A DNA stretch of 55,569 bases from a virus. Shown here in pieces: positions 18,141-47,954 of this stretch. Numbering within the stretch: the first letter of the stretch is position 1; each line of letters opens with the position of its first letter. The stretch lies in the IMG/VR virus record IMGVR_UViG_3300044644_002107, positions 1-55,569 of that record; one strand, given 5' to 3'. A program made the translations under genes and the position numbers. The notes under the pieces were generated by a model that made no database searches, was not told where the DNA came from, and saw only the letters and a list, made by a program, of their open reading frames with translations.

Positions 18141-19217
18141 TTATATATGAATAGGATATTCTAATCTGTCAAGCCACTTGCCGTTATTGTCTACTGGCCA
18201 CACCACAACTCTATGAGGCTTAGTTGTTGAGCTAAACGTAACAGTGTGTTTATTTTGCTTAAAAGTGCATATGTCGGGTTGTTCTTGTGGATTGAAGTCA
18301 CAGCGATGTATAACTGATGTTGTGCAATCCTCGATACCTACGTACCAAAAACTGTAGTCTGAAGCTTTTGTGATTTTGTCAATATCCCACGAAAATTCTA
18401 TAGTGTAATCTTTCTTATTATGTTTTGCATATAAGTGGAACTCTTCTCTCCAGTCACACTTCACTAATTCAAATAAATTTGGTTGATCGCAATAGCATAG
18501 ATCAAATATTTTCTCATCTGATCCAATAAACTTATCTTCAATGCATTTTACAACATTTTTATCAAACAACTCACATAGCCTATTAATACAAGAACCATCC
18601 AAAAAGAAAATAGTTCCTTTTAAAAATCGCATTTGAGACATGCAGTGCTCTTCCTTGGTTGTATTAGAAAGACCTTGTTCTACATAATCATTAATACAAA
18701 AGAATCTTACTTTGTTTTCTTTGAGAGTGAGCTTCGTTGGATCTGGCCATTCTGTATTGTTTACTATCCATTTTTCATCTCTAATAAATCCAGTATCAAC
18801 CCAACTAAAAAACTTAGTGTTAAATGGGTTTTGTTGAATTACATGCTTCAGGAAAAAAACTTTATTAAACATCAACACGTTGTATAACGGCTTTGTCATT
18901 TCAGGAACATTGTGATGAGTTTTTTTAACAAATTCTTCGGAACTCATCAATTTTTCTAACAACGAATTGTATCTCTTCCAAGCCTCTAGAGTTTCAATAT
19001 TACAGATATTAATAATCGTATTTTTTAATTCTGGATCTACCTTCTTTCGTTCCTCTACAATACAGTCGTAAAACTTTTCTTCTGTTTGGATGTAAAGCTT
19101 TATATTCAGAGACAACACATTTTTAAACCAATACATGTATGTATTGCTGTGTATGCCAAAGTTGTCCCAATTAGTCCTACCAATATCAAAAAAGAAAGTG
19201 CAAAATGTTATATCCAT
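18141..19217 (-). CDS. HtrL/YibB-family predicted glycosyltransferase
   Basis: 358 residues from the ATG at 19217 (a TTG two codons upstream, at 19223, is an alternative). The start MDITFCTFFFDIGRTNW matches the 'T..taFfDigR..w' opening of HtrL/YibB proteins. YNVLMFNKVFFLKHVIQQNP near 120-140 and FFSWVDTGFIR near 145-155 match their 'yn.l...K..fl..a...np' and 'w.DaG..r' elements. These are GT-A-like proteins linked with lipopolysaccharide or capsule genes (WlaTC). The C-terminal 80 residues look like a separate beta domain, and its final motif VVWPVDNNGKWLDR resembles the end of the protein at 20844 (VVWPHSKSKGWCER). First of four consecutive sugar-transferase-like genes in reverse order; overlaps the next by ten bases. 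Confidence 0.7.
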   Translation of the reverse strand: MDITFCTFFFDIGRTNWDNFGIHSNTYMYWFKNVLSLNIKLYIQTEEKFYDCIVEERKKVDPELKNTIINICNIETLEAWKRYNSLLEKLMSSEEFVKKTHHNVPEMTKPLYNVLMFNKVFFLKHVIQQNPFNTKFFSWVDTGFIRDEKWIVNNTEWPDPTKLTLKENKVRFFCINDYVEQGLSNTTKEEHCMSQMRFLKGTIFFLDGSCINRLCELFDKNVVKCIEDKFIGSDEKIFDLCYCDQPNLFELVKCDWREEFHLYAKHNKKDYTIEFSWDIDKITKASDYSFWYVGIEDCTTSVIHRCDFNPQEQPDICTFKQNKHTVTFSSTTKPHRVVVWPVDNNGKWLDRLEYPIHI

Positions 19218-19984
19218 GTCCAAGTAAAATTATCGTTTTTGTGAGTAAGAGCACATTTAGTTTTGGGATTTATAAAATACTCATCTTCTTCGCTCAACAT
19301 GCTGGCAACCGCAAACCCATCGCTGGCTAGGGAAGTAGGAACAAACCCCTCTGAATAGCCATAATAGTTTTGTTCGTTTAATTCTATTAAATGTTTCATT
19401 GCTCTGTTTGAATATCTCACAATCGGAAAAAAGCAACCCATGTGCCGTTCAGTAGACTTGTAATTGTCTCCATGACCAGGAGCGAAATGTAACCAATTGC
19501 CGTGAGACCCCATCCTATCATTTGCCTTGCTCACAAAAGGAAACTCTTCATAATCCTTCTTTTTGAAAAGCTGAATTGCTAAAAAGTCTTCTTTGTGGGG
19601 TTCATATTCTGTTAAAAATGGATTTAAATTTGCGTCAAAATAAACATCATCATCAAAGAACCAATAATAATCAAACTGATTATATTTTTTATAAAAAAGC
19701 AGCATTCTAAAATGAGCATAAAAATAATTTGGATTTTGGTGATTACCCCAACGATGCTTTGGGTCTATCGGTCTGTTAAAATTGTGCTTGTCAAAATCTT
19801 TAAGATTGTAAGCATAAACAGGAACGTCTTTGTATGGGTTTGGATTGTTTATTTCCTTGCCTTGATCATCAAATAATACAAAAAAATTTTTAAATTGTTC
19901 GTTTTTGTACTTTAAAAAATTATCATAAAATCCTCCTCCAATTGAACGAGGATATGTGCAAAAAACAACTGCTGTATTATTCAT
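19208..19984 (-). CDS. GT-A-like glycosyltransferase with DDD motif
   Basis: 258 residues. The N-terminal AVVFCTYPRS strand, the YYWFFDDDVYFDANLNPFL element near 105-123 and the later FAPGHGD and DGFAVAS segments are those of a GT-A fold transferase: a hydrophobic strand ending in acidic metal-binding residues, then a downstream acceptor region. I cannot name the family. It overlaps the neighbouring genes on both sides by about 8-10 bases, so it is translationally linked to them. Confidence 0.7.
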   Translation of the reverse strand: MNNTAVVFCTYPRSIGGGFYDNFLKYKNEQFKNFFVLFDDQGKEINNPNPYKDVPVYAYNLKDFDKHNFNRPIDPKHRWGNHQNPNYFYAHFRMLLFYKKYNQFDYYWFFDDDVYFDANLNPFLTEYEPHKEDFLAIQLFKKKDYEEFPFVSKANDRMGSHGNWLHFAPGHGDNYKSTERHMGCFFPIVRYSNRAMKHLIELNEQNYYGYSEGFVPTSLASDGFAVASMLSEEDEYFINPKTKCALTHKNDNFTWTWI

Positions 19985-20843: not shown

Positions 20844-22103
20844 TTATTTAGATAGTTCTTGACGGATGCGTTCACACCATCCCTTGGATTTTGAGTGGGG
20901 CCACACTACCCAATACGTTGGATGGGTTTCTGTTTGGAACTCTCTCCAAATTTTGTAAAAAGAATCAGTGGTGTTTTGAATTTGTTTAATCTCTTCCTCT
21001 GCTGCATCCTGTCTGTATATCGTTTTATCAAAACTATCATGGAAAGCCACTACCCAAAAATCATAATCCGTTTCAGGCACATCTGCTTTGGGCAAATCAA
21101 TGCAGTGCTTAAAAATTTGTAAGAACGATTTCTCAAATTCTTCTTCTGTGTTAAACTGAGGGTTTGGAGGAGGATTGTGTTCCAAAGTATACTTTTGAAT
21201 TGCTCGTTTCTTAAAAGAGACGCCAGCATACTTTTCGTAATCTAGTAAAGTACGAACACTTCCAAAACCATACTTGCCAAAGTCAATATCATTCACTAAA
21301 CCATCCATTCCAAATAGCTTGCGATTGCGTTCGTGACAATCTTTGTTTTTGACCCACCATTCTTTGTCGTCGTCCCATTGTTTGGTTCTACCTTTTCGTG
21401 TGTACTCATGCCACACGACTACTTTATGTGGATGAAACAAATCATAACCATGTGTAAACGCTCTCACAGCAATTGAAATTTCTTCTCCGTGAAAATAATA
21501 GTTAGGATCATGTTGAACTTCTGTTGCAAAAGCTCCATCAGTAAAACAGAAGTGAGCTGAATAAAAGCGAGCTGGAGCTGGTTCGTCTGGTTTTTGGTGA
21601 TCAGGATAACCAGCAGGCAAAAAGAATATGGCTCCTTCAGGAATGAACCTATCAAAGTTCATCCTCCAAGGAATTTGCACTCGTTCTTCTGGATCTTTCT
21701 CTGGATTAAAGCTAGGAATGTAACTTGTCAACAGAGGTTTTTTATGTCCTTTTGATCTAAGGCCTTCTAACATATTAATCAGCTCTTCGTCCCAATTTTT
21801 TATAAATCTGTGATGGCTGTCTAATTGTAGAGTATATGTTTCGTTGTCGTATTCTTGTTGAATCTTGTTACGGGCCCAACAAGCTCCTTTGCTCTCTTGA
21901 TATGGAATATCTAAGATTTTAAATTTAGGACCTGGTCCAAAACTATCTAGTGTTTCTTGAGAAAGAGTTTCTTCTGGACCATGTTGCCATGCTATGCAGA
22001 AAACTAAATTTTCCGGATGCTTGGCGTTTGAAATACAATCCTTCAAGGTTGGTACGAGCTGAGGATCTCTATATGAAGCAATTTGAATAAAAATGTTTGA
22101 CAT
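20844..22103 (-). CDS. GlcNAc-transferase family (Skp1-type) glycosyltransferase
   Basis: 419 residues from ATG at 22103, chosen because IFIQIASYRDPQLVPTLKD directly follows as in the family; an upstream start would run into the preceding gene. The opening, LVFCIAWQHG near 40, TYTLQLDSHHRF near 85-97 (D-x-H metal site) and FYSAHFCFTDGAFATEV near 180-196 match the GlcNAc family (PF11397). Its eukaryotic members add GlcNAc to hydroxyproline of Skp1. The C-terminal 110 residues (ETDYDFWVVAFHD, THPTYWVVWPHSKSKGW) form an extra domain also seen at the end of the gene at 18141. It heads the four-gene sugar block. Confidence 0.8.
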   Translation of the reverse strand: MSNIFIQIASYRDPQLVPTLKDCISNAKHPENLVFCIAWQHGPEETLSQETLDSFGPGPKFKILDIPYQESKGACWARNKIQQEYDNETYTLQLDSHHRFIKNWDEELINMLEGLRSKGHKKPLLTSYIPSFNPEKDPEERVQIPWRMNFDRFIPEGAIFFLPAGYPDHQKPDEPAPARFYSAHFCFTDGAFATEVQHDPNYYFHGEEISIAVRAFTHGYDLFHPHKVVVWHEYTRKGRTKQWDDDKEWWVKNKDCHERNRKLFGMDGLVNDIDFGKYGFGSVRTLLDYEKYAGVSFKKRAIQKYTLEHNPPPNPQFNTEEEFEKSFLQIFKHCIDLPKADVPETDYDFWVVAFHDSFDKTIYRQDAAEEEIKQIQNTTDSFYKIWREFQTETHPTYWVVWPHSKSKGWCERIRQELSK

Positions 22104-22120
22104 AATGTTGTTGTTTAAAT

Positions 22121-22387
22121 TTAGCGACCCAACCAACTTGTGGCTCCTTGAACGTCCGTTACGTCAAAGTAAATTGCATGACCAATTGAGTTGTTTTCAT
22201 TAACAAGAAACCCTCTTAATTTTCTTGGCGTTTTGGAATAAGGAGTTACTTTTTCTTCAATTAACTCTTTGGTAACATAATATTCCTTACCTTCAAATTG
22301 TTTGGTAATTGCATTGCGGAGAAAATCCCCAACATCTTCGTTTCCTACTTGTTCGGGCCGTACGTGATAAAAAACTGGTTGATTCAC
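22121..22387 (-). CDS. Small hypothetical protein
   Basis: 88 residues from a GTG at 22387. Mixed alpha/beta, no cysteines, no membrane segment. KYYVTKELIEE-like elements and RGFLVNENNSIGHAIYF suggest a compact fold. It ends 17 bases before the GlcNAc-transferase gene and is probably in the same transcript. No family recognised. Confidence 0.6.
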   Translation of the reverse strand: MNQPVFYHVRPEQVGNEDVGDFLRNAITKQFEGKEYYVTKELIEEKVTPYSKTPRKLRGFLVNENNSIGHAIYFDVTDVQGATSWLGR

Positions 22388-33833: not shown

Positions 33834-34216
33834 GTGTCCATGAATTGAGCTTTTTGAGTAGCCGACATATTGGATAGACGCTCAAAAAAGTATTTCCAAA
33901 ATTCAGCAGGATCTGGAGAAGTTTTAATAACAGCAATGACTTCTACGTCATCGCAATTAATCATTCTCCAATTCTGCATAAAGATATCCCACGTTACTAC
34001 TAAGTTTTTTGCTGCAGGATCGTATCTAAGAGAGCCGTTGGGGGGAACAAAGTGTAATATTTTTTTTCCAGGAGTTGATTGTAATAATCTTCTATCGTTG
34101 GTGCACAACATTCGTCTATAATCTTTAAATCCTGGTTTTGAACTGCGTCTGTGGAATCGAAGTTCTGCTGCATTCAAATGCAGTAAAGTCCATAATGCTG
34201 TGCGGCCTAATCTCAT
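33830..34216 (-). CDS. WYL_2-like protein, second copy of the family
   Basis: 128 residues. The segment NLVVTWDIFMQNWRMINCDDVEVIAVI near 70-96 parallels NLVVVWDVEKSAFRSFKLDSV of the gene at 15958, the defining element of the small SH3-like WYL_2/DUF2693 fold. The N-terminal part is basic (ELRFHRRSSKPGFKDYRR) and the C-terminus adds a helix (DPAEFWKYFFERLSNM). It starts in a TAATG overlap with the GroES-like gene. Role unknown; membership in the family is an inference from one motif. Confidence 0.55.
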   Translation of the reverse strand: MRLGRTALWTLLHLNAAELRFHRRSSKPGFKDYRRMLCTNDRRLLQSTPGKKILHFVPPNGSLRYDPAAKNLVVTWDIFMQNWRMINCDDVEVIAVIKTSPDPAEFWKYFFERLSNMSATQKAQFMDT

Positions 34217-34593
34217 TAAACTTCTGAATTTGGCTTACAAATGCCGAAAATTCTTTCTTCATTCAAGAAGACGTTCGTCTTTCCGTTTCTTTGAATACCA
34301 ACGATGCCCTTATCTCCCGGAAAGATAACATAGTGCCCTTGTTTTACTTGTTTGGTATTTGGTCCTGTGAGAACCACTCTTCCTACCCTCCAAGCCTTGT
34401 TGTCCACAACAGAGTGAGGCAACACAATGCCGTTTCTGACAAGCGAATTTCCATCAGATGCTACGTCTGCGTATTCAACTTGAATAACATCTCCTAAAAG
34501 CTCCGTAATTTCAAAATCTTCTGGAAGAGGGCAATTGTGATAAGGGTCGATGTCTGCTAGTCCATTGTTGTTACGTGGTAGTTCAGGTCGCAT
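34216..34593 (-). CDS. GroES/gp31-like co-chaperonin
   Basis: 125 residues from the ATG at 34593 (a TTG at 34632 is possible). Beta-barrel co-chaperonin features: GDVIQVEY near 35, RNGIVLPHSVVDNKAWRVGRVVLTGPNTKQVKQGHYVIFPGDKGI near 54-98 (like GroES 'GIvLP....ek...g.VvavG.G......vkvGD.V.f.k..G'), then NVFLNEERIFGI at the end (GroES '...l.e.diLai'). T4 gp31 replaces GroES so the host GroEL can fold gp23, so a capsid-folding role is likely. The mobile loop, which should be near VEYADVASDGNSLVRNG, is short. It diverges from the gene at 34644 over a 50-base gap. Confidence 0.8.
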   Translation of the reverse strand: MRPELPRNNNGLADIDPYHNCPLPEDFEITELLGDVIQVEYADVASDGNSLVRNGIVLPHSVVDNKAWRVGRVVLTGPNTKQVKQGHYVIFPGDKGIVGIQRNGKTNVFLNEERIFGICKPNSEV

Positions 34594-34630
34594 ATGAGGT
34601 TTACTTACTTGGAAAAAAGTGGTTGTCAAC

Positions 34631-34638
34631 AATAAGTA
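34631..34638 (+). promoter_or_regulatory. Late-promoter-like motif AATAAGTA
   Basis: AATAAGTA, AGCTT, ATG at 34644 (spacing 5), in the short divergent region with the co-chaperonin gene. Confidence 0.55.
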
Positions 34639-34643
34639 AGCTT

Positions 34644-35102
34644 ATGATATTTAAAGACCAGGAATTATTGTCAGAAGCCTATAACAAAGTAGCTAAAAAC
34701 AAATGCACGTGTGGTAAAAACTGCACATGCAGAAAAGAAGCTAAAAAACCTGTAAAGGAAGCTAAGCACGAAAAGCCTGATTACTTAGATGCAGATGAAG
34801 ATGGAGACGAAGAAGAGTCTTTAAAACAAGCTCTCAAAGATAAAGAAGCAAAGACTGAAAGTTTGTCTCTTTTCAAGTCTCTTTATAAGACAACAATTAA
34901 AGAAGAGAGTCCTTACTCCAACACTTTTGAGACTGACAAAAAAATTTGGACTTTAAGACGCCAAATTCACCCAGAAGCTCAATACTTTGTTCACTACAAA
35001 GATGGCAGAAAGTCTAAGCCACTAAAGGGAGAATCAGTGTTAATGACACTCAAAGCTGATGTGCATGACATTGAGTCAGTTGAGTCCGTTCACGAGGAGT
35101 AA
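34644..35102 (+). CDS. Putative internal head protein with Cys cluster and protease-site leader
   Basis: 152 residues from ATG at 34644, preferred over an upstream frame because of the promoter-like motif five bases before it. The N-terminus MIFKDQELLSEAYNKV has L-S-E|A at 9-12, as in two other candidate head proteins. A C-x-C-x4-C-x-C cluster follows (CTCGKNCTC, about 20-28), then charged linker (KPDYLDADEDGDEEESL), a second FKSLYKTTIKEES element and a globular C-terminus (IWTLRRQIHPEAQYFVHYKDG). The Cys cluster may bind metal. Role by analogy: internal or core head protein. The last 27 bases overlap the convergent gp62 gene. Confidence 0.65.
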   Translation: MIFKDQELLSEAYNKVAKNKCTCGKNCTCRKEAKKPVKEAKHEKPDYLDADEDGDEEESLKQALKDKEAKTESLSLFKSLYKTTIKEESPYSNTFETDKKIWTLRRQIHPEAQYFVHYKDGRKSKPLKGESVLMTLKADVHDIESVESVHEE

Positions 35103-35420
35103 AGCTTCTCGTTCGGAGATTTCTAATCCCTGAGCAAGAACTTTTATTCTTTTGTCTTCTTCTTCAACGGTATCCTTAACTTTTTTGATATAGTTAATTC
35201 TTGGACTATGGTTCATTCTCGGAAACATTGTTATCATTGTTTTATAATGGATTTGCTTGTCCTCTAACAATGTTTTGTTGTTCAAACCATTAATCGCTTC
35301 TCCTATTGTTGGATTAATAAAGCTTAACCAACGATTAACTAAAAAAGGAACGTAACCATCTAATACAAGATCTCCTTTTTTAGTTACTATTATATCTTTA
35401 AGGTAATCAAAAATTGTCAC
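35076..35420 (-). CDS. 62: Clamp-loader small subunit, T4 gp62-like
   Basis: 114 residues from a GTG at 35420, which gives the start (M)TIFDYLKDI; a TTG at 35432 is also open. KKGDLVLDGYVPFLVNRWLSF near 14-34 then EAINGLNNKTLLEDKQIHYKTMITMFPR near 42-70 follow gp62 of cyanophages ('K.dlm....y.pfmvNr.lS...d....ane.N....ldn..qydf....irkrkRf'). Gp62 joins gp44 to load the sliding clamp gp45 onto DNA. Gp44, gp45 and the polymerase are not in the window. It ends inside the convergent gene's 3' end, overlapping by 27 bases. Confidence 0.7.
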   Translation of the reverse strand: MTIFDYLKDIIVTKKGDLVLDGYVPFLVNRWLSFINPTIGEAINGLNNKTLLEDKQIHYKTMITMFPRMNHSPRINYIKKVKDTVEEEDKRIKVLAQGLEISEREALLLVNGLN

Positions 35421-35946
35421 GTCTTGTCTCAATAAAAATGCTTCTGGTCAATTGACGGAATGACTCCACAATACTGATTTCAAGGTCTAGCATTTTTTGA
35501 ATATCTAAGCTCAACAAATAAAAAGCATTGTCAGTATTTCCTTCCTCTAAGGGAAAAATTAAATGTAAGATAATTGAATCTTTAACTTGATTAATCATTG
35601 ACAAAGAAGCTTGTTTGTCATCAATAAAAATGCAGCTCTCGTCAACAATGCATTCTTTGCTTGTCATGGCTGTTAGCATTGATCCTATTTGAGCTGCATA
35701 CAAACGAGCAAAACATGCTCCTCCAAATACTTCTGTGTTAGGCAATTCTGCAACTACAACAAGAGCGTTCTTAAACGCCAATGGTCCAATTTTTGTTGGA
35801 GCATTAAACAGGACAACGTCTCCTAACGAAGAAACTGAATTGTGAAAAAGCTTGTATGCAAAGCGCTGTTGAGCTAAACAACAATCATACAATCCATCTT
35901 CTGTCAATAAATTAGTCTTTTGTATATGGTCTGGTGCTAATCTCAT
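35407..35946 (-). CDS. Hypothetical protein in the clamp-loader operon
   Basis: 179 residues. No recognised motif. AFKNALVVVAELPNTEVFGGACFARLYAAQIGSML suggests a mixed alpha/beta globular fold. It has about five Cys spread along the chain. It is linked by an ATGA-type overlap (35943-35946) to the glycosyltransferase before it and by overlap to gp62 after it, so it is expressed with replication and sugar genes. Not recognised. Confidence 0.65.
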   Translation of the reverse strand: MRLAPDHIQKTNLLTEDGLYDCCLAQQRFAYKLFHNSVSSLGDVVLFNAPTKIGPLAFKNALVVVAELPNTEVFGGACFARLYAAQIGSMLTAMTSKECIVDESCIFIDDKQASLSMINQVKDSIILHLIFPLEEGNTDNAFYLLSLDIQKMLDLEISIVESFRQLTRSIFIETRRDNF

Positions 35947-36614
35947 AAATATGTTTGTTTAAATTTTAAATTTGCCTCTTCCCATTGAGATGTCAACATT
36001 GAATCTCCAATTCCATAATGAATTACTCGGACAGGAAGCACTCCGCAAGTTACTTTTTTGTCATTTGCTCTCAAACAAAAGGCAATGTCGTAAAAATGAA
36101 AGTTAAAATTTTCATCAAAGTAAAGTTCTTTTTCTACTAAATCTTTTACTTTGCAAGAAATAAACAAACCATCAATGACAAGAGCTCTTGAATTTGTTGG
36201 ACCAAATATAGTGGTCCATATTTTGTTTTGATGAAAATGAGACACTTCTCCAACGTAGTTAGAGGCCTCTGCAGCAAGGTGCCAGGCAAGTTTGTTAGCG
36301 TGTTTATTAAACGTTTTAGCGCCAGCAAGGCCTGTAATCGAATATCGACTATTGATTAGTTTTTCGTATAAAAAGAGATCTTCCAATACAACATCGTCAT
36401 GCACAAACAAAACTACTTTGTCAATGTTTTCTGGGTCCTTCAAAACTTCGTTATAGCACTCCGATAACCCTTTTTGATTATCTTTAAAAACATGAAAGCT
36501 TATATTTGAATTTGTGTCATATTGCTTTTTCAAACTCTCGTATATTGGCTTTTGACTAAATTCATCGTTAGTCTTTGCTTGAGTGCAAACTACAATAAGC
36601 AGCTTGGTGTTCAT
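35943..36614 (-). CDS. GT2-like (StrF/family 2_5) glycosyltransferase
   Basis: 223 residues. KVVLFVHDDVVLEDLFLYEKL near 66-86 and AGAKTFNKHA near 96-105 follow the StrF-type GT2 pattern ('y..fvhqDv.l......' then 'vaGa.'). IDGLFISCKVKDL near 145-157 and FHFYDIAFCLRANDKK near 172-187 are the acceptor and 'h.yD.dlcl.....g' elements. The gene overlaps both neighbours by four bases in a compact operon with the TGT-like gene upstream. Substrate unknown; a glycosyl donor to modified bases is conceivable, but nothing shows that. Confidence 0.75.
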   Translation of the reverse strand: MNTKLLIVVCTQAKTNDEFSQKPIYESLKKQYDTNSNISFHVFKDNQKGLSECYNEVLKDPENIDKVVLFVHDDVVLEDLFLYEKLINSRYSITGLAGAKTFNKHANKLAWHLAAEASNYVGEVSHFHQNKIWTTIFGPTNSRALVIDGLFISCKVKDLVEKELYFDENFNFHFYDIAFCLRANDKKVTCGVLPVRVIHYGIGDSMLTSQWEEANLKFKQTYL

Positions 36615-37402
36615 ATATTTTTATATTTCTGCTTTAGGTATTGAATATTTGTTTTTGCAAGTTGCTGTTGCTCTTTTGTAAGAGTTACATCAAAATATTC
36701 ATTAGTGGTTGGAATCCTAGTTGTATTTCCACTTTCGAAAAGAATGTTGTTAATTGCAGCAAGAACAGTATAACAGCTATCCGAACTACGAATAAAAGGA
36801 AGTTTATGTTTTAAATAATATTCAAACTCATCGTGTTCCCCCATTCCTAATAGATGTAGTGGTTTTGTAAGTAAACCATTCTCATAAAGTTCCTTTACAC
36901 ATTCGTTACGAGACACTGCTATCATTTTATCATCCGTGGCATCATTCCAACACTTTGGAACGGCTATTTTGCTTAATCCTATAGTCTTTACGAACGGATT
37001 GAGACACATTTGCATGTAACACTCTATCCATTCTTTCTTTGTAGAACCTTGAGGACAAGCAAATATATTTGTCTTGTCTAGCAAATGCCTTTTAAACATT
37101 TCTTGAATAAAGTTGTCGAGATTTTTAAGTGTTTGCTTTTGATTAAAAAGGACATCTGGAGCAATGACTTCTGTAGGTTGCAACTCTTCTGTTGCTTCCA
37201 AAAGCATTTCTTGAGTAACCAAACTATGTTCGGCTGCTCCGTTATCAAGCAAAATAAAAGCGTCTGGTTTCTTTTTCCTTAAATCCAAAAAATACCTTCT
37301 GTACTGTTTGTTTTGTACATAATGATGGCACAACGCAAAGTACCAATCTCCGTTATCCATCATATCTAAATGGCTGTTTGGTGGTATGCAGAAAAATTTC
37401 AT
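36611..37402 (-). CDS. TGT/DpdA-like (7-deazaguanine transglycosylase) protein
   Basis: 263 residues. AFILLDNGAAEHSLVT near 48-63 corresponds to the 'lDnGafe' catalytic Asp element of TIM-barrel TGT-like proteins; EVIAPDVLFNQKQTLKNL near 78-95, IFACPQGSTKKEWIECY near 113-129, KTIGLSKIAVP near 138-148, HLLGMGEHDEFEYYL and FIRSSDSCYTVLA near 208-220 match the order of phage DpdA-type transferases, including a second Asp (SSDS). DpdA swaps guanine in DNA for a 7-deazaguanine such as preQ0. I see no C-x-C-x2-C zinc site. It forms a four-base-overlap chain with the kinase upstream and the GT downstream. Could instead act on tRNA. Confidence 0.65.
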   Translation of the reverse strand: MKFFCIPPNSHLDMMDNGDWYFALCHHYVQNKQYRRYFLDLRKKKPDAFILLDNGAAEHSLVTQEMLLEATEELQPTEVIAPDVLFNQKQTLKNLDNFIQEMFKRHLLDKTNIFACPQGSTKKEWIECYMQMCLNPFVKTIGLSKIAVPKCWNDATDDKMIAVSRNECVKELYENGLLTKPLHLLGMGEHDEFEYYLKHKLPFIRSSDSCYTVLAAINNILFESGNTTRIPTTNEYFDVTLTKEQQQLAKTNIQYLKQKYKNI

Positions 37403-37833
37403 TGCTTTAAAATATATTTTTTAACTCCCAAAATACCTAAATTAATATCTCCTTGTTCTGCTTCTTTAAAAGGAACAGCATCTCCTTGTCGAGCTCTTTG
37501 TTTGTAACGCTTTTTGCGTTCTTTCTTCGGACATTCAATCCAAAGCAAAGTTGCTTCAGGAAAATGTTCTAGTATTTCCTTTTGCCTAACTCCACAAATT
37601 ACATAGTTGTTGGTGATATCTAGCTCATCTCTAAGATGTATTTTGTATTTTAGCTGTTTAACGATTGTTTCATGAAGTTCTTTTGAATTCTGAAGCTCTC
37701 TGCGCTCTGAAGTATTTTTAATTTCTCTTACAATATCTCCAACTTCAATAAACAAACCTGCCACTGACCCAGCCATGGCTTTAGCATACCGAGTTTTTCC
37801 AGAACAAAGCTGACCACAGACAAACGTAATCAT
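37399..37833 (-). CDS. P-loop kinase
   Basis: 144 residues. VCGQLCSGKTRYAKAMA near 4-20 is a Walker A (GxxxxGKT) with a following helix, IEVGDIVREI an early NMP-binding-like element, and ECPKKERKKRYKQRARQGD near 97-115 a lid with Arg cluster, as in small (d)NMP or adenylate-kinase-type enzymes. In this operon a nucleotide or dNMP kinase would fit DNA modification or nucleotide supply. Substrate not determined. Four-base overlaps link it to the QueD-like and TGT-like genes. Confidence 0.75.
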   Translation of the reverse strand: MITFVCGQLCSGKTRYAKAMAGSVAGLFIEVGDIVREIKNTSERRELQNSKELHETIVKQLKYKIHLRDELDITNNYVICGVRQKEILEHFPEATLLWIECPKKERKKRYKQRARQGDAVPFKEAEQGDINLGILGVKKYILKQ

Positions 37834-38189
37834 TTATATACCTTAGCTCCGTTTTCGTTGTCTTCAAGAACTTCTACGATCTCACAATCAAATTTTTTGA
37901 GAAGCTCTTCGGCCAGCATCTCACATGACCTTGATCCAAGTTCTCCTGGTCGGCCATACTTTGTTTCGAGATAATTTTGCACTCGACGCTTAAAAAGAAT
38001 AATTTCCACATCTCTATCATCATGAGTTACGTGCTTTTCTAGCGTAACGAAAAACAAATGTCTGTGTCTATCAAAGAGGAAATGGATTTCTGGGTTGTCA
38101 GGAAGAGCCTCTTTGACTCCCTGCCAGTTGTGAAAAGCTTCGTATTGAAGTGTAATAATAACAGTAGTAGTAGTCATTGACATAATCAT
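37830..38189 (-). CDS. QueD/6-pyruvoyl-tetrahydropterin-synthase-like protein
   Basis: 119 residues from ATG at 38189 (alternative ATGs at 38183 and 38177). LQYEAFHNWQGV near 14-25 parallels the 'F.AaH' of QueD, HRHLFFVTLEKHV near 42-54 the 'lHGH.y.v.v...g' zinc-binding strand, DVEIILFKRRVQNYL the 'g.viDF..lk' element, and SRSCEMLAEELL plus VLEDNENGAKVY the closing 'ptsE.la..i' and 'v.Et..n...y'. The two His of H-x-H and an earlier His could bind zinc. The LDH catalytic region is not clear. It starts the operon ahead of the kinase and TGT-like genes. A T-fold assignment is likely; activity uncertain. Confidence 0.55.
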   Translation of the reverse strand: MIMSMTTTTVIITLQYEAFHNWQGVKEALPDNPEIHFLFDRHRHLFFVTLEKHVTHDDRDVEIILFKRRVQNYLETKYGRPGELGSRSCEMLAEELLKKFDCEIVEVLEDNENGAKVYK

Positions 38190-38214: not shown

Positions 38215-39192
38215 TTAGATTTTAATATTTTTGAGCCAAACATTATTTTTCTCATGCCACTTTAATGTTTTTATTAATCCCTCTTCAAATGATACTGTTG
38301 GTTCATATCCTATTAACGTTTTTGCTTTTGTTATATTAGCTTGAGTAGTTAAAATATCAGCAGCATGAAAGTCTCTAGTTTCTCTAACCGGACTATCTAC
38401 TCCTCTTTGCTTGCAAATAAAATCAATTGTCCAGTTTAAACTTTTAGGATCTCTTCCTCCTCCGAGGTTCAAAATTTCGTATCCTAAAAGTTTAGAAGCT
38501 TGAATCGTTCCTCTTGCAATATCATCTACATATGTGAAATCCCGAGACTGAGATCCGTCTCCAAAAATTTCAAGCGGGTGGCTTTCGTCAATCCATTTAA
38601 TAAACCTAAAAATACTCATGTCTGGCCTTCCTGCAGGACCAAATACTGTAAAATACCGTACTACTGAAATATCTAAACCATAAAGGTGATGATAACTATA
38701 AGCCATTAGTTCTGCTGCTTTTTTTGAAGCTGCATATGGAGACAAAGGAGTGTTTACAGCAAGGTCTTCTCTAAAAGGCATTTGTTGTCCAGCATATAAA
38801 GAAGAGGTAGAAGCTAACACCATTTTCTGTACGCTTGTGTTTCTCATGGCCTCTAAAAGATTTAAAGTTCCTACAGCGTTTGTTGACATGTACACATAAG
38901 GATTCTTTAAGCTATTGTGAACTCCTGCTCGAGCAGCTAAGTTGTAAATAGTTTCAAATTGAACTGATTCAAATAGCTCAAAAATTTTATTTTTATCTTC
39001 AATATCTATTTCTAAAAATTTAAAATTCTTAGTACAATAATGTAATTCATTTAATCTGTGAGTTTTAAGAGTGGGACTATAATAGTCGTTTAAATTATCG
39101 ATACCTACTACATTGTGTCCTTCTGCTAAAAGCATTTTACAAACGACAGAACCTATAAACCCAGCACAACCTGTAACTAAAACAGTATTCAT
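38215..39192 (-). CDS. NAD-dependent nucleotide-sugar epimerase (UDP-glucuronate epimerase-like)
   Basis: 325 residues. An extended SDR: TGCAGFIG near 7-14 (NAD-binding), NLNDYYSP near 33-40 typical of UDP-glucuronate 4-epimerases, NLAARAGVHNSLKNP near 83-97, STSSLYA near 128-134, the catalytic YAASK near 152-156 (Tyr, Lys), FTVFGPAGRPDMSIF near 180-195 and DGSQSRDFTYVDDI near 216-229. UDP-GlcA 4-epimerases have the same 'VYGP.GRPDMA' and 'RDFTYIDDI' signatures. It would supply galacturonic acid or another sugar for the window's glycosyltransferases. It is separated from the upstream gene by a terminator. Confidence 0.88.
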   Translation of the reverse strand: MNTVLVTGCAGFIGSVVCKMLLAEGHNVVGIDNLNDYYSPTLKTHRLNELHYCTKNFKFLEIDIEDKNKIFELFESVQFETIYNLAARAGVHNSLKNPYVYMSTNAVGTLNLLEAMRNTSVQKMVLASTSSLYAGQQMPFREDLAVNTPLSPYAASKKAAELMAYSYHHLYGLDISVVRYFTVFGPAGRPDMSIFRFIKWIDESHPLEIFGDGSQSRDFTYVDDIARGTIQASKLLGYEILNLGGGRDPKSLNWTIDFICKQRGVDSPVRETRDFHAADILTTQANITKAKTLIGYEPTVSFEEGLIKTLKWHEKNNVWLKNIKI

Positions 39193-39551: not shown

Positions 39552-39689
39552 TTAAATAGCTGCGTTAATAGCTGCCATAAGAGCTGAAACTCTTGTGTCA
39601 AGTTTAGCTAGATCAATTGCTTCTCCTATTGAATAAAAAGACAAACGATGATCCGCGCGATTATTACTAGTAAAACTTCCAAATACCAT
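39552..39689 (-). CDS. 45-residue protein coupled to the fibre gene
   Basis: ATG at 39689, stop TAA at 39552-39554. The start overlaps the stop of the large fibre gene in TAATG, so it is translationally coupled. Sequence: a short polar start (VFGSFTSNNRADHRLS), then a helix (IGEAIDLAKLDTRVSALMAA). The length and tight coupling suggest a chaperone-like or tail-end helix protein, but this is not shown. No family. Confidence 0.55.
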   Translation of the reverse strand: MVFGSFTSNNRADHRLSFYSIGEAIDLAKLDTRVSALMAAINAAI

Positions 39690-42481
39690 TAATTTGAATC
39701 TCCAAAATCATCGCTCCAACTAGCAATAAGTTTTCCTGCGATATCAGTCGTTAAACTGTTAGCTAACAGTTTTCCAATAGTATTTTCTGCAGTAAGTTGA
39801 GCAGTTAAAACATTATAAAAATCAGAAGCATCCATAATTGCTTCTCCTACTGTGTTGTCCACTGGAGTATTCAATCTAACAGATTTAGGGCTTGGAATAA
39901 TGCAAGTTCCAACCAATGTATTATTAGCATAAGAAACACCCTCTCTTACTGCTGATACTGGAGGCATTGAAAACGCACTCAACGAGTCTGTTGAATACAT
40001 GTTTAGTTTTTCGTTGTTAAGGCTCGAATAAGAAATAACAGTATTTGTTGCTGGCGGATGAAGCTGATATGTTAATGAATATATAGCAACTCTGCCAGAG
40101 GGATCATCTATTATGTTTCCACTAAAATAATTTTGAGTATACTTACCGTATGTTTCACTAACATTAGTGCCTGTTGTAAATCTCGCGGAACGGAACGCTG
40201 AAGAAGTTGGAGAAGCAATTGCATTACCGAATAGCTGAAATACTCCATATCTTGATTCGTTTATAACACCATAAGCTTCTGGTCCTTCTCCTCCTACTAT
40301 ATTTCCTTTGACAACAATGTTTGTTGTTGATCTTTCATCTGCTAATGACGTTTGTATGCCTGCTCCCAAAGAACCTCCAATTACGGTGCCATTTACAAAA
40401 ACACTTCCTCCTAAGTTTTGTATACCGTAAGTAGTCGAGCTTCCTCCTCCAATTACAAGTCCGTTTACATAAACAGTTCCATGATAGTTGTATATTCCGG
40501 TTCTAATATTAGCTGTAGATCTTTCAGCACTAACTGACCCATTAACTTTTATTATAGAGGAATGGTAGTTATTTAGCGACGTATAATCGCTTTGGAGATA
40601 AATGCCGTGTCCTGCTGACGTTCCGTTTACAGCACCATTAATTTCTAAAACGGAATCTGCAACAACATTAATTCCGTGAGAACTGTGATTAGATGTGCTG
40701 TTCGCGGCGTTTACGTTGGCAATAGTGATTACTCCAGAAACTGGAGCTAATATTGAAAGTCCGTGGCTACTGGTATTTGCTCCAGCTTCTATGCTAGCGT
40801 TGGGTGTGTTGTTGGTTATAGTTAAATTATTAATTGGAATATTAATTTCCATTCCAGGAGCAGATGTCCCAGTTCCTCCAAGAATATTCCCTTGAACAGT
40901 AACGTTGTTAATTGGAATATTTCCTGATAATTGTAAACCTAATGCAGAAGTACTAGAACCTCCAGAAATTGTTTTTTGAGCGTTTAGTGTTGACACACTT
41001 CCTCTTATAATCCCTCCTGTGGTGTTAGGACCCGATCCTCCTATATGCGTTCCTTCTACATCAATGGTATCAAAAGATCCCTTCAACACGTATCCTGGAC
41101 CTCCTCCTGCCGCTCCTCCGAGTACATTCCCGTGTATATACACAGAGGAGGCTGAACAATCTGCAGATAGTCCGGGCCCAAGAGAGGATCCGCCTGTAAT
41201 GTTTCCATATATATCAATGTTTCCTGTTCCGTTATAATACACTCCTCCACATTGAGCTCCAGTTCCTCCTTTTACGTTTCCTATAATTAATACTCCTCCT
41301 GAACCCACGTGATGCAGTCCATAAGATGAATTAGAATTGCCTCCCGTAATGTTTCCCTGAAAAACAGCAGTGTCTCCTCCTCCTATTTGAGTTTCATCTG
41401 AAACTGAACTGCTTAAGAGGGTCATAGAGCTGTTAATAAACCCGGGAGCAGACAACGTAGTGACCGTCGTCGGCCGAGTTACCGTATACATGCCCGTATC
41501 ACTAATTGAATTAAAATTCTGAGCAACGTTTCTTATCGTTTGGACTTCCACCTCTGTGTTTATTTCTACTACATTTGCATTAGCGTATACGTGGTCAGTT
41601 GACAACGGAACGAGCTCTTCGATCCACGTATTTGGGTCTGTCCATAACCCACTTTGCTTAGCATAAGTGGACCGTTCGGTTATTCCCCACTTTCTGCCTA
41701 AATACAATTCCACTTTAGTTCTTTCTTCCGTCGTTAAGCTCCTATTATAACACAACAATTCTGAAAGATAAAAGTTAACAGAAGTGTTATTAGCACCAAA
41801 CGTGATTCCTCCTGCTGCTGGTATGCCCATTCCAAGTCTAGTAACATTAATAGAAGCATTGAGAGTGCTATTACTTCTGGTGTTTTGAATTCCATTTAAA
41901 AACGTCGTTCCTGTTGTTCCGTTGTGAGTGGAAGTAAATACATCAAATTTGTTTCTTGGAGTTACAGACCCTGTATTTAACGCAGGATTAGTGGAATATA
42001 AACCCAGCAATGTTGCTGTAGAAGCAACAATTGGAAGAATGTTATTCGGAGTTGTTGTATCAGTATGAGTTATTCCAGATTGAGAGTACAATCTTCCGTT
42101 AGTAGGATATGCCTGGTTGGTTGATAGCACAGCGAACACTGTTTGAGAAGTATAATTGTTATTGAAATATGCAGTTAACGCGTCATTAGCTCCGTCGAAC
42201 CAAACAGTTGGATTCTGGTTATTAATATACAAAAATGTTGGATTACGAGAGACGTTGGTGTTTTGAACAAATGCACTTATTCCACTAACGGTTGTTCCTA
42301 ATTGATTTAACGACGTTAAATTTGAATTCCAAGCAGCTTTGTTTTTCCAATATGCAACCGGCTCTCCTGACGACTGTACCTGGTTTTGTCCTGTACCTAA
42401 AAGAAACATAGAGGCAAGATCACTGGCGTCTAACCAAATGAGACAATCTGAGATGCCTAAAGGAGTTGTTAATGCAGCCAT
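39689..42481 (-). CDS. Fibre protein: LamG-like N-terminus + beta-helix repeats
   Basis: 930 residues. Residues about 1-270 form a LamG/concanavalin-like domain starting with DCLIWLDASD and NPTVWFDGANDAL and ending RTKVELYLGRKWG, as in phage and surface-binding proteins. After a short linker come about 20 beta-helix repeats built on GNITGGxxx and GxVxxV (GNITGGNSNSSYGLHHVG, GNVKGGTGAQCGGVYYNG, GNILGGTGTSAPGMEI). The C-terminal 100 residues (SMPPVSAVREGVSYANN, then ENTIGKLLANSLTTDIAGKLIAS) are shared with the next fibres. Likely a receptor-binding or surface-decorating fibre. AATAAATA lies 16 bases before its ATG. Confidence 0.82.
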   Translation of the reverse strand: MAALTTPLGISDCLIWLDASDLASMFLLGTGQNQVQSSGEPVAYWKNKAAWNSNLTSLNQLGTTVSGISAFVQNTNVSRNPTFLYINNQNPTVWFDGANDALTAYFNNNYTSQTVFAVLSTNQAYPTNGRLYSQSGITHTDTTTPNNILPIVASTATLLGLYSTNPALNTGSVTPRNKFDVFTSTHNGTTGTTFLNGIQNTRSNSTLNASINVTRLGMGIPAAGGITFGANNTSVNFYLSELLCYNRSLTTEERTKVELYLGRKWGITERSTYAKQSGLWTDPNTWIEELVPLSTDHVYANANVVEINTEVEVQTIRNVAQNFNSISDTGMYTVTRPTTVTTLSAPGFINSSMTLLSSSVSDETQIGGGDTAVFQGNITGGNSNSSYGLHHVGSGGVLIIGNVKGGTGAQCGGVYYNGTGNIDIYGNITGGSSLGPGLSADCSASSVYIHGNVLGGAAGGGPGYVLKGSFDTIDVEGTHIGGSGPNTTGGIIRGSVSTLNAQKTISGGSSTSALGLQLSGNIPINNVTVQGNILGGTGTSAPGMEINIPINNLTITNNTPNASIEAGANTSSHGLSILAPVSGVITIANVNAANSTSNHSSHGINVVADSVLEINGAVNGTSAGHGIYLQSDYTSLNNYHSSIIKVNGSVSAERSTANIRTGIYNYHGTVYVNGLVIGGGSSTTYGIQNLGGSVFVNGTVIGGSLGAGIQTSLADERSTTNIVVKGNIVGGEGPEAYGVINESRYGVFQLFGNAIASPTSSAFRSARFTTGTNVSETYGKYTQNYFSGNIIDDPSGRVAIYSLTYQLHPPATNTVISYSSLNNEKLNMYSTDSLSAFSMPPVSAVREGVSYANNTLVGTCIIPSPKSVRLNTPVDNTVGEAIMDASDFYNVLTAQLTAENTIGKLLANSLTTDIAGKLIASWSDDFGDSN

Positions 42482-44087: not shown

Positions 44088-47000
44088 TTAAAAAGTTGCT
44101 CCGGTTAGTTTGACAGCACTACTTAATAAAACTTGTTTTGTGCAAATGTTTTTGATTTTTTCTCCAAAGGTATTTTGTATATTTTGAGATAAGTCTGTGT
44201 TTAGTGCTGCTATAAAGTCTTCTTTGAGAAGTTTTATTTTTCCTAGTTCTATTCCAACAGGAACCCCAAACGAAACAGAAGAAGCTGACGGAACAATCAT
44301 TGTGCCTGTAAGTTCGTTAATATTAACAAACGGTTTTCCTGAAAGCTGAGACATTTCTGCATATTTGACTCCAAAAGCAACAGAAGAAGCATTGGGAATT
44401 AAAGTAGAATGGTAGGCTTCAGGAGCATAAAAAACAATTTGTGAACCAGCGTCATTAAAATGTGTTATGTACTGATTGTAATTGCTAGCATCTTGAAAAT
44501 ATGTTCTAGCCCAGACGGCTTGTCTGCCGTTTGAGGCATTAACAATAGGTCCTGTAATATCAACCATTGAAGACTGGCTTGAAGACCAAATAGCTGATTG
44601 GTTTGTTGAGGCTCTTACTATACCTGTAACTTTTACGGACGTGTCGCCAATTATATTAACTGTAGGCAAAGTAGTTGTGACTGATCCACCATCAATGTCT
44701 CCATTAATGGTTACCGGGCCTTGTTCATTAACTACATAAAGAGCGGGAGAAGCGGTACCAATTAAATTTCCGTATAAAAATAAATTTGCATTTAATCCTG
44801 TATTTGCGTTATGTATAGCATACCCCACTGTCCCTGTTCCGCCAAGAACAAACGGACTAAATACGTAAATGTTTCCGTACATTAACATATTAACGAATGC
44901 TGGGCCTGTTCTGCCAACTATATTATTTGACGACAGAGCAACAGTTGAAATATAATTAGAATGATAACCCTCTAAAATCATCCCACTCGCTGTCGCGTTC
45001 GTTCCTCCTGACAAGTTTCCACTAAGAGTAAAGGTCTGTAATAAATTTTTAATATTAACTCCATAACAAAACGCTGCAGTTCCTCCTGAAACGTTTCCTA
45101 CTATTCTCACATCTGTTGCAGTTAAAGCATGAAAAGCTCCAATGTCTGAGTCGTCAGCGGTAGTTCCAGTTATATTTCCGGTAATTGATGCGCTATTTGT
45201 GGAATCTAAGTATAATCCAGAATAACTACTTCCTAGTATGTTTCCTATTACCTCTACTCTATTTGCAGAAATAGCTCTCACGCCAGAGACAGAACCTCCT
45301 ACTATATTTCCATATATTTTAATGCTATCAGTCAAAGGAGCGTACACTCCTTGAGAGCTACTAGTGCCTCCTAAAATATTGTCTCCTGATATAGTGAGGG
45401 TTGTAACAACTGGACACGTCAGTCCGTCAGCATCAGTACTAGATCCTCCTCTTATGTTTCCTACAATATTGACAGAACCGCTTGCAGAAAGACCCACTAT
45501 TCCTTTTGAATTAAAGCCTGAACTTCCTGAAATATTTCCTGTTACGGAAAGATTATTAAAATAATCAACGCTCATTCCTACAGCAAACCGGCCGGAACCT
45601 CCAGCAACATTTCCGAATATCTCTATATTGTTTGCAGATAAAGTTCTTAATCCAAATGTGTTTGTTTGAGTGCTGCCTAAAATGTTTCCGGTAACAAAAA
45701 TATTATGCGTAGACTCACTGTACACGCCACAAGCAGATAAACCAGTATTAGCAAATATGCCTCCCGATACAACAAGATTGCCAGTTGAAGTGCTAGAAAT
45801 ACCTGCACATCTTGTACTGGTTCCACCACGCACGCTGCTTAAAACTGTTATATTGCAAAAAGGAGAGGTGTTGTACAAGCCATACGCATCGTCATTGCCT
45901 CCTCCTGTTAGCGTTCCTGTTATTGTGATGCTTGTTCCTGCTAAATTCCTTAAAGCTATCTCGCGGTTGCCTACAACATTGCCATCGATAATAATCGGAG
46001 CAGTTCCTTTTTGGATTATTCCGTAAGCGGATAGCGCTGTTCCAGAACAAACGTTTCCTGTGAGATATACTACGCCGGAATTGACGTTCATATTCAAACA
46101 AACAGCGCTTCCAGCAATTACGTTAAACAAACGATGGTTAATTGCAGTAGTTGATCCAGAAACGTTCAATGTATAAGGTTGGTTCAACAAAAACATGCCT
46201 CCATCAGACAAATATGGAAACGTGACGTAAGGAGCGGTTTGTAAAGTATTAACTGTAATGTTTTGATCGATAGTTACTTGGTAACCGTTAGCATAAACTC
46301 TAGAACTTAAACCAGGAACGTCGTTGGAGTACCACGTTGCATTGTTTGACCAATTTCCATTGTATACAGGATACGTAAAATTTGCTAAAGGAATGTTCCA
46401 CTTGCTGGCTAGATAAAACTCAATTTGATGTCTTTCTTCTTCTGTTACGAATCTATCATATACTAACACTTCAGAAATTTCCCCGTCATAAAAAGTACCT
46501 ACTGCTGGAGCTCCTGTACTTCCGTTTAAATTTGCTCCTATTCTAGAACAAACCGAGCTAACAGCCGTACCAAAAGACGTGGCAGCATAATTCACAATTG
46601 ACAACCCATTTGTAACGTTTGTTCCTTGGATGTCTCTTGCTCTCTGAGATAAAACAACAAAAGAACTAAGTGCTGGAACAGCTACTTGTCCAAATACAAT
46701 GCTGTTTCTCATAGCACTTCTTGTATTCAAACTGTTGAGATGTTCTGCAACTCTGTAGTTTGCAGCATTGTTAGTCGTATCAGCTTGAGTTATAGTTCCA
46801 ACTTGAGTATAAATTCTTCCTCCAGAGCTACTAGCCAAACTTCTTCCTGTTTGAACTATAAAAGTTGACTGCTCTGTGTTTACGCTTGTTGCGTTTAATG
46901 TCAAAAATTGAGTTCCATTAAACCATACCGATGGATACCCGTGAAAACTGCTTGTATAATAAGTTGGCCTGGAAGCAGTAGTGACTCCTGTGGTTATAAA

Positions 47001-47954
47001 ATTAACAAAATTATTTTGGTTAGCTGTCTTGTCTGCCCAACACCCAATCGGCTGAGCGTTAGTCGTAACTGGAGTCGTTTTTGCTGCTTCTTGATATAGT
47101 GTAGAAGAATCACTAGCATCAAGCCACGTCCGCAAATTAAATACGACTGGGTTATTAGATGAGAACCATTTGTTGTAAAGATATCCTTCAAGCTGCTTAA
47201 TTTCGTAATTGTTATATGGAGTATTTCGAAGATACACTCCACATTCGCAAATGTCTCCATTAAAATAATATTCAGGATCAGAATTGTCAGCAAAGCCTGT
47301 AGAATCGTTACTTCCACCAATACAAAACCTGGACGAAAGAGTTGCATTAAAACCATTATCTCCTCCCCCTGCATCTGTGCTATTTTGAAATCTATTAGCC
47401 CGCATTCTCATCGGTCCGTTGACTGATTGAGTTCTTAAAACGTTCCAGCAAACAATTGTGTAGTCGGAACACGTATTTGACAAAGTAGTATTCATGTTCC
47501 CGTTTGAATGCACCAATCCCAATAAACCATTGGCGATGATGGTGTCTGCAGGAGACGTTCTACTAAGAAAATACCGACCAACAGAACCAGGTCGGCTCTT
47601 AGACATTATATGTTGAACATTAAAAGTCGGAGCAACTGTATTTTTAATAACAGCAAAAAGTAAAGCGTGATTAGTTCCTAAACTTAATACGTCTCCTGCA
47701 GCAAGTAACCCGTTGCCTCCAAATCTTATCGTGTTACTATACTTTTCCGGAGAAGTTCTAATATTTGTTATGTAAGTAGGCCTAGTGCCACTACTAGAGC
47801 TTACGTGATTGTTGTTGCCACTTTGATCTCGCCAAGTCCCAATAGAAGTTCCGCTAGCGGTCACAGGATTGCCAAATTGATCCAAGACTCCTTGATTAGC
47901 ATCTAACCAAAGCTGACAGCCAGTAATATCTAATGGTGACGTTATTAAAGCCAT
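44088..47954 (-). CDS. Very large fibre protein with two LamG-like domains and beta-helix
   Basis: 1288 residues. Two LamG-like units open it: LWLDANQGVLDQFGNP (about 12-27) and LRTWLDASDSSTLYQEA (about 276-292), each running to a 'YLYNKW' or 'FYLASKW' closing. Then a long beta-helix (GNILGSTQTNTFG, GNVAGGSGRFAVG, GNISGSSGFNSKG, GNIRGGSSTDADG) spans about 650-1150. The end carries the C-terminal module (PNASSVAFGVKYAEM, NTFGEKIKNICTKQVL). Same family as its neighbours but with a duplicated N-terminal domain, pointing to domain shuffling. Probably a host-binding fibre. Confidence 0.82.
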   Translation of the reverse strand: MALITSPLDITGCQLWLDANQGVLDQFGNPVTASGTSIGTWRDQSGNNNHVSSSSGTRPTYITNIRTSPEKYSNTIRFGGNGLLAAGDVLSLGTNHALLFAVIKNTVAPTFNVQHIMSKSRPGSVGRYFLSRTSPADTIIANGLLGLVHSNGNMNTTLSNTCSDYTIVCWNVLRTQSVNGPMRMRANRFQNSTDAGGGDNGFNATLSSRFCIGGSNDSTGFADNSDPEYYFNGDICECGVYLRNTPYNNYEIKQLEGYLYNKWFSSNNPVVFNLRTWLDASDSSTLYQEAAKTTPVTTNAQPIGCWADKTANQNNFVNFITTGVTTASRPTYYTSSFHGYPSVWFNGTQFLTLNATSVNTEQSTFIVQTGRSLASSSGGRIYTQVGTITQADTTNNAANYRVAEHLNSLNTRSAMRNSIVFGQVAVPALSSFVVLSQRARDIQGTNVTNGLSIVNYAATSFGTAVSSVCSRIGANLNGSTGAPAVGTFYDGEISEVLVYDRFVTEEERHQIEFYLASKWNIPLANFTYPVYNGNWSNNATWYSNDVPGLSSRVYANGYQVTIDQNITVNTLQTAPYVTFPYLSDGGMFLLNQPYTLNVSGSTTAINHRLFNVIAGSAVCLNMNVNSGVVYLTGNVCSGTALSAYGIIQKGTAPIIIDGNVVGNREIALRNLAGTSITITGTLTGGGNDDAYGLYNTSPFCNITVLSSVRGGTSTRCAGISSTSTGNLVVSGGIFANTGLSACGVYSESTHNIFVTGNILGSTQTNTFGLRTLSANNIEIFGNVAGGSGRFAVGMSVDYFNNLSVTGNISGSSGFNSKGIVGLSASGSVNIVGNIRGGSSTDADGLTCPVVTTLTISGDNILGGTSSSQGVYAPLTDSIKIYGNIVGGSVSGVRAISANRVEVIGNILGSSYSGLYLDSTNSASITGNITGTTADDSDIGAFHALTATDVRIVGNVSGGTAAFCYGVNIKNLLQTFTLSGNLSGGTNATASGMILEGYHSNYISTVALSSNNIVGRTGPAFVNMLMYGNIYVFSPFVLGGTGTVGYAIHNANTGLNANLFLYGNLIGTASPALYVVNEQGPVTINGDIDGGSVTTTLPTVNIIGDTSVKVTGIVRASTNQSAIWSSSQSSMVDITGPIVNASNGRQAVWARTYFQDASNYNQYITHFNDAGSQIVFYAPEAYHSTLIPNASSVAFGVKYAEMSQLSGKPFVNINELTGTMIVPSASSVSFGVPVGIELGKIKLLKEDFIAALNTDLSQNIQNTFGEKIKNICTKQVLLSSAVKLTGATF

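Follow-up and report, generated by a model that had tools for sequence, protein, structure and literature searches.

Which base does a phage put into its DNA when a QueD-like gene, a small kinase gene and a gene resembling DNA transglycosylases share one short operon, and does that base enter before or after replication? The question is raised by IMGVR_UViG_3300044644_002107, a complete IMG/VR virus record of 55,569 bases that is analyzed here at its full length as "the window" and is itself a genome fragment (55.6 kb). Gene families for a portal, a major head protein and a head protease place it among the tailed phages, and its clamp-loader and head genes suggest a T4-like build. For the three genes, located at positions 36611–38189 on the minus strand, an earlier note had proposed a 7-deazaguanine DNA modification fed by preQ0 synthesis. 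The modification as such is well supported by the tRNA-guanine transglycosylase (TGT) fold and the catalytic residues of one product, by relatives lying in FolE/QueD/QueE clusters and by a relative annotated as DpdA; a preQ0-type product is unlikely. Taken together, the cassette probably makes 7-deazaguanine and inserts it into the phage DNA.

The gene chain was found as described in the earlier note. All three open reading frames (ORFs) start with ATG and follow one another with four-base overlaps, encoding a QueD-like protein of 119 residues (37830–38189), a P-loop kinase of 144 residues (37399–37833) and a TGT-like protein of 263 residues (36611–37402). The QueD-like protein may start a few codons further in, because the relative in contig L004 begins at a later MTTT. 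The same order, QueD-like, kinase, TGT-like, recurs in Cellulophaga phage phiST, in Chryseobacterium phage MA9V-3 and in about 17 viral contigs, with TGT-like proteins that are 39–80% identical. Since the order recurs in these genomes, the features of the cassette are not due to chance. In six contigs (L016–L021) the QueD-like protein and the kinase are fused into one protein of 304–328 residues, and in L012 the QueD-like gene is displaced 2.4 kb upstream. One pattern scan of bacterial genome contigs yielded no relative; thus, within the limits of that single search, the system looks phage-borne.

Phage phiST carries these three genes alongside FolE, QueE and QueD, and lacks QueC. Its protein CGPG_00065, the only TGT-like candidate seen in this phage and without a PF01702 match, is 43% identical to the TGT-like protein of the window, and the QueD-like proteins are 41–43% identical. 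The window differs in that its lineage has FolE, QueD and QueE elsewhere in the genome, as seen in the relative G002, in that no MazG-like gene lies beside the cassette, and in that a glycosyltransferase-like gene overlaps it downstream.

Searches for known families did not identify the TGT-like protein: it had no TGT match in Pfam or NCBIfam, and a single-sequence PDB search gave no name. When hhalign was used to compare its profile with one E. coli TGT or with five DpdA1 proteins, the motifs were aligned in the right register, but the scores were poor; therefore, fold evidence was used to establish its identity. An AlphaFold (AF2) model built with 17 homologues reached a mean predicted local distance difference test (pLDDT) score of 92.3. 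Its best 30 Foldseek matches among solved structures were all TGTs, as were all 50 rows listed by a second aligner (Z 17.8 and root-mean-square deviation 3.1 over 232 residues to 2pwu). Of the check that the earlier note had suggested, the structural part linked the protein to TGTs, while Pfam and NCBIfam profiles alone did not.

The reference systems were DpdA1 of phage 9g and DpdA2 of Vibrio phage nt-1 (PMC6884629), which have TGT-type motifs in matching register and belong to 7-deazaguanine clusters, but are longer (300–317 and 392–464 residues), are accompanied by QueC and have no adjacent kinase. The predicted elements LDNGAAE, PQG and SSDS are present in the TGT-like protein. They contain D53 (codon 37244–37246, minus strand), which corresponds to the general-base Asp motif of TGTs and is in register with LDSGAF of DpdA1, Q118, and D208 (codon 36779–36781, minus strand), the candidate nucleophile. 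Among 22 divergent homologues from five lineages, D53, D83 (in PDVLF), H183 and G186 (in HLG, with L185), S206 and D208 were invariant, and Q118 was kept in 20. The register of the catalytic motif agrees with DMFDC of E. coli TGT, with SCDS of DpdA1, with DpdA2, and with SIDS of 7ui4, a bacterial DNA-guanine transglycosylase (DpdA) of solved structure. Thus, fold and motif register bear out the assignment to the DpdA-type transglycosylases. A search of 20 records, which have the cassette or are its relative L022, detected no canonical TGT (PF01702); hence, the TGT-like protein is the only candidate found. One relative, QQO91982 of Flavobacterium phage immuto, is annotated as "DNA guanine transglycosylase". 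This DpdA is likewise short (22–23% identity) and has genes for FolE, QueD, QueE, a nucleoside triphosphate (NTP) pyrophosphohydrolase and a kinase nearby; in contrast to the window, its kinase is of the AAA_28 (NadR-like) kind, QueC, QueF and a formyltransferase are present, and the QueD-like protein is missing. A scan with the DpdA-like protein of a Weizmannia phage found nothing. Rhizobium phage RHph_I1_18 (L057:6936-8204) encodes a TGT-like protein of 422 residues, annotated as DUF3310 and extended by an additional C-terminal region, with a DCD/dUTPase-like gene immediately after it.

The QueD-like protein was not named by Pfam, NCBIfam or single-sequence PDB searches either. An AlphaFold-type model of the fused homologue of L019 (pLDDT 86) was used for both of its domains. 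The N-terminal domain resembled E. coli QueD (PDB 4ntk, b2765; Foldseek E 9e-05), and profile–profile comparison of the QueD-like alignment with six QueDs gave E 6e-05; PDB profile matches of this alignment were ribonuclease inhibitors and were taken as chance. The protein shares with E. coli QueD the fold, the zinc histidines (H20, H42 and H44) and the terminal glutamate (Glu109). It differs in that the catalytic Cys, located four residues before the zinc HxH, is replaced by Leu38, which is invariant in 23 of 23 homologues, and in that the Asp-His dyad is lost. Because both elements are lost and because relatives encode a separate QueD with the Cys, the protein is, as judged by its residues, a QueD paralogue with other chemistry rather than a working QueD. 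Of the earlier QueD/PTPS-like claim, the fold was thus retained and the QueD activity was not. In MA9V-3 (L002:6644-7528), the QueD-like ORF has an in-frame N-terminal extension resembling an HNH homing endonuclease.

The remaining synthesis genes were sought in longer genomes. FolE, QueD and QueE were found in 10 of 10 longer relatives. In the nearest of the long relatives, G002 (217 kb, TGT-like protein 65% identical to that of the window), QueD and QueE are adjacent (39.2–40.4 kb), FolE is located at 64.9 kb and QueC is absent; other TGT-like relatives lie directly inside FolE/QueD/QueE clusters. Of the preQ0 set that the earlier note sought in the host or elsewhere in the genome, the longer relatives encode FolE and QueE, together with QueD, but not QueC, which was not found in any of 19 records of this kind. 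In a comparison of 26 phages, the QueD-like protein was present in 15 distinct phages, 14 of which lack QueC, whereas QueC is encoded by each of the 11 phages that lack the QueD-like protein, as seen by search for 10 and by eye for L022. With this near-perfect exclusion (Fisher p 1.6e-06, uncorrected for kinship among phages that are not all independent), the QueD-like protein appears to stand in for QueC where the pathway ends at 7-carboxy-7-deazaguanine (CDG). Since QueC is absent and the pathway stops at CDG, the QueD-like protein would most simply act on CDG. Given the missing catalytic Cys and the near-constant lack of QueC in phages with this protein, the endpoint of the pathway is most likely CDG or 7-deazaguanine, not preQ0.

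QueD-like genes also occur in other settings. In the jumbo phages PA5oct and Phosso (L172:2708-4231 and L170:3851-5322), they adjoin glycosyltransferases similar to that of the window, near QueE or FolE, and profile A7 found no TGT-like protein in these two genomes. Faecalibacterium phage Roos (L055:6007-7875) carries in a row the QueD-like gene, a gene for a TGT-like protein of 303 residues and one for an apparent YhhQ-type transporter (by eye), and no FolE-type set was seen in this neighborhood.

The middle gene of the cassette encodes the predicted small P-loop kinase. It matched two Pfam families above their cut-offs, AAA_18 (32.6 bits) and AAA_33 (29.3 bits), and has the Walker A motif GQLCSGKT at residues 7–14 (37792–37815, minus strand). 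The kinase domain of the L019 model gave Z 14.2 to adenylate kinase and Z 13.8, at 20% identity, to an AMP-bound adenylate-kinase-related protein. According to this model, the window protein is adenylate-kinase-like, with a P-loop nucleoside monophosphate kinase fold and a putative nucleotide substrate.

Kinase genes were counted as same-strand P-loop kinases within 2.5 kb of DpdA-type genes. A kinase neighbor was present in 12 of 12 window-like loci and in 6 of 7 phiST-like loci; in the remaining one, L016, the fused kinase lies at a distance of 2.7 kb. By direct kinase search, 72 of 81 immuto-like loci had one, and the contigs of the other nine all stop short of the kinase position. In Bacillus phage BSP7 and Weizmannia phage Youna2, the kinase gene overlaps the DpdA-type gene by four bases. 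Aeromonas phage Ahp1, Vibrio phage D479 and phage Bakedbeans have a deoxynucleoside-monophosphate-kinase-like gene directly 3' of the TGT-like gene (phrog_139 in Ahp1 and D479, by eye in Bakedbeans). The kinases fall into four kinds: adenylate-kinase-like, AAA_28/NadR-like, the T4-type deoxynucleoside monophosphate kinase, and an unclassified kind that carries a thymidylate kinase annotation. Short DpdAs thus occur with nucleotide-type kinases in about eight phage groups, one lineage of which has the QueD–kinase fusion, while no kinase was found beside DpdA1 (0 of 8) or DpdA2 (0 of 11). The kinase is not a bystander, as it lies beside nearly every short DpdA-like gene examined. In a limited literature search, no prior report was found of this kinase rule, of the QueD–kinase fusion or of the exclusion between the QueD-like protein and QueC.

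Other nucleotide-related genes lie close to these loci. MazG is near the cassette in phiST and G010, and a PRA-PH gene is near DpdA in 78 of 81 immuto-like loci. A DCD/dUTPase-like gene is nearby in MA9V-3, L016, L018–L021, Ahp1, D479 and RHph_I1_18; G002 has a DCD-like gene far from its cassette. G002 also carries a second kinase gene, NadR-like (AAA_28), directly 3' of QueE (L063:6412-7083), of the same kind as that near DpdA in immuto phages. A phosphoribosyltransferase gene was considered as a marker of short DpdAs and rejected, as it also occurs near DpdA2.

What the analysis shows are the genes, their folds, the conserved residues and the gene associations; from these observations, a sequence of reactions may be proposed. 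FolE, QueD and QueE, encoded by phage or host, would supply CDG. The QueD-fold protein, a DpdL-like candidate CDG decarboxylase, would remove the carboxylate with the help of zinc to give 7-deazaguanine. The TGT-fold protein, a DpdA3-like predicted DNA or nucleotide guanine transglycosylase, would exchange guanine for 7-deazaguanine through a covalent intermediate at Asp208. If the exchange took place on free deoxyguanosine monophosphate (dGMP), the kinase could phosphorylate 7-deaza-dGMP towards the triphosphate, and the polymerase would incorporate it; of the roles considered for the kinase, this one fits best. DNA altered in this way would resist host restriction enzymes. In their 2023 study in Nucleic Acids Research (NAR), Cui et al. 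reportedly described 2'-deoxy-7-deazaguanine in phage DNA, the CDG decarboxylase DpdL and a DpdA3 subfamily that permits complete replacement. The window proteins agree with this account, and the names DpdA3 and DpdL are applied to them provisionally.

Exchange on the free nucleotide rather than on DNA is about an even bet; it is suggested by the kinase rule and by the neighboring NTP pyrophosphohydrolases. The wider proposal, that short DpdAs generally act on free deoxyguanosine nucleotides and that kinases, in many phages together with a dGTP pyrophosphohydrolase, lead to 7-deaza-dGTP so that guanine is replaced before replication, is made tentatively and with slightly more doubt than belief. 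An analogous precursor route exists in phage S-2L, which uses a dGTP pyrophosphohydrolase, a base-modifying enzyme and kinases to make the triphosphate dZTP. Several observations weigh against the scheme. The window itself, albeit a fragment, has no FolE, QueD or QueE, and D479 is the sole carrier of the QueD-like protein with a QueC match, a weak and partial one (32.8 bits). In L022, Roos and RHph_I1_18, the TGT-like gene lacks an adjacent kinase. Protein charge, tried as a sign of DNA binding, was uninformative; DpdA1 and DpdA2 are equally acidic, and the short DpdAs are not set apart. Moreover, the paper that named DpdA3 is said to place insertion after replication.

The main rival is a post-replicative exchange in which DpdA3 swaps guanine in finished DNA and the kinase, of the GMP or dGMP type, only recycles the guanine, released in large amounts, into the nucleotide pool, joined in some phages by phosphoribosyltransferases for guanine salvage. 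This is a real possibility, which is held somewhat short of even. It agrees with the reported placement of insertion and with TGT relatives of known function, which work on polymers, and phosphoribosyltransferase genes indeed occur close to DpdA in immuto-like phages, L016 and L018–L021; 7 of 11 DpdA2 loci have one too. However, DpdA1 and DpdA2 loci would also release guanine, yet they have no kinase (0 of 19), and salvage leaves the NTP pyrophosphohydrolases beside the short DpdAs unexplained.

A different doubt concerns the decarboxylation. The loss of the Cys and the Asp-His dyad excludes QueD chemistry only and does not establish that the carboxylate is removed; together with the company of a TGT-like protein and an apparent transporter in Roos, this leaves room for another step after CDG or for a base-binding chaperone, with CDG or another derivative in the DNA. 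Such a role is unlikely, as the QueD-like protein occurs in unrelated phages that lack QueC, a pattern expected of a QueC replacement acting after CDG, and as 2'-deoxy-7-deazaguanine and DpdL are reportedly known from phages. That the TGT-like protein modifies tRNA in the manner of queuosine, as its fold, common to tRNA enzymes, might suggest, is very improbable. The zinc motif CxCxxC..H of tRNA TGTs, present in the E. coli enzyme, is missing here and in the other phage DpdAs that were compared; DNA-replication genes are neighbors (the clamp loader in the window; in BSP7 and Youna2, DNA polymerase A); neither QueA nor QueG turned up in the neighborhoods; and the immuto relative is annotated as a DNA transglycosylase.

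Downstream of the cassette, the minus-strand operon continues as the earlier note had indicated. The TGT-like gene is overlapped by four bases by the ORF of a glycosyltransferase-like protein (35943–36614, 223 residues; PF13712, 30.8 bits, cut-off 27), which is kept in L004, L005 and L012. Then follow, on the same strand, a gene without a family match (35407–35946, 179 residues) and the gene of a clamp-loader subunit (35076–35432; phrog_225, E 7e-07). Further along this minus-strand run lies a GroES-like co-chaperonin gene (34216–34632; phrog_3188), kept in L004 and L005. Upstream of the cassette, the minus strand encodes an NAD-dependent nucleotide-sugar epimerase (38215–39192), which was rejected as a core part of the cassette, being present in L004 and absent in L005. 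Sugar genes are abundant in the window: several glycosyltransferase-like proteins, an HtrL_YibB protein and the epimerase are encoded at 4033–4776, 18141–19223, 20844–22136, 35943–36614 and 38215–39192. Two long minus-strand genes lie at 39689–42481 and 44088–47954. The product of the former is highly repetitive and glycine-rich, with GNxxGG repeats, and is likely to be a tail or surface protein with a beta-helical fold; its L004 counterpart has 1450 residues with near-identical internal repeats.

The locus is a further example of an already known system, with the product revised from a preQ0-type base to 7-deazaguanine. Guanine replacement makes phages resistant to many restriction enzymes. 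The genomic rule of a QueD-like protein instead of QueC predicts in which phages the base is 7-deazaguanine itself rather than a preQ0 derivative. The kinase association makes a route at the precursor level testable with three purified proteins. If it held, the TGT-like protein would be, to our knowledge, the first member of the TGT family with demonstrated activity on a mononucleotide, and the route would explain complete replacement of guanine.

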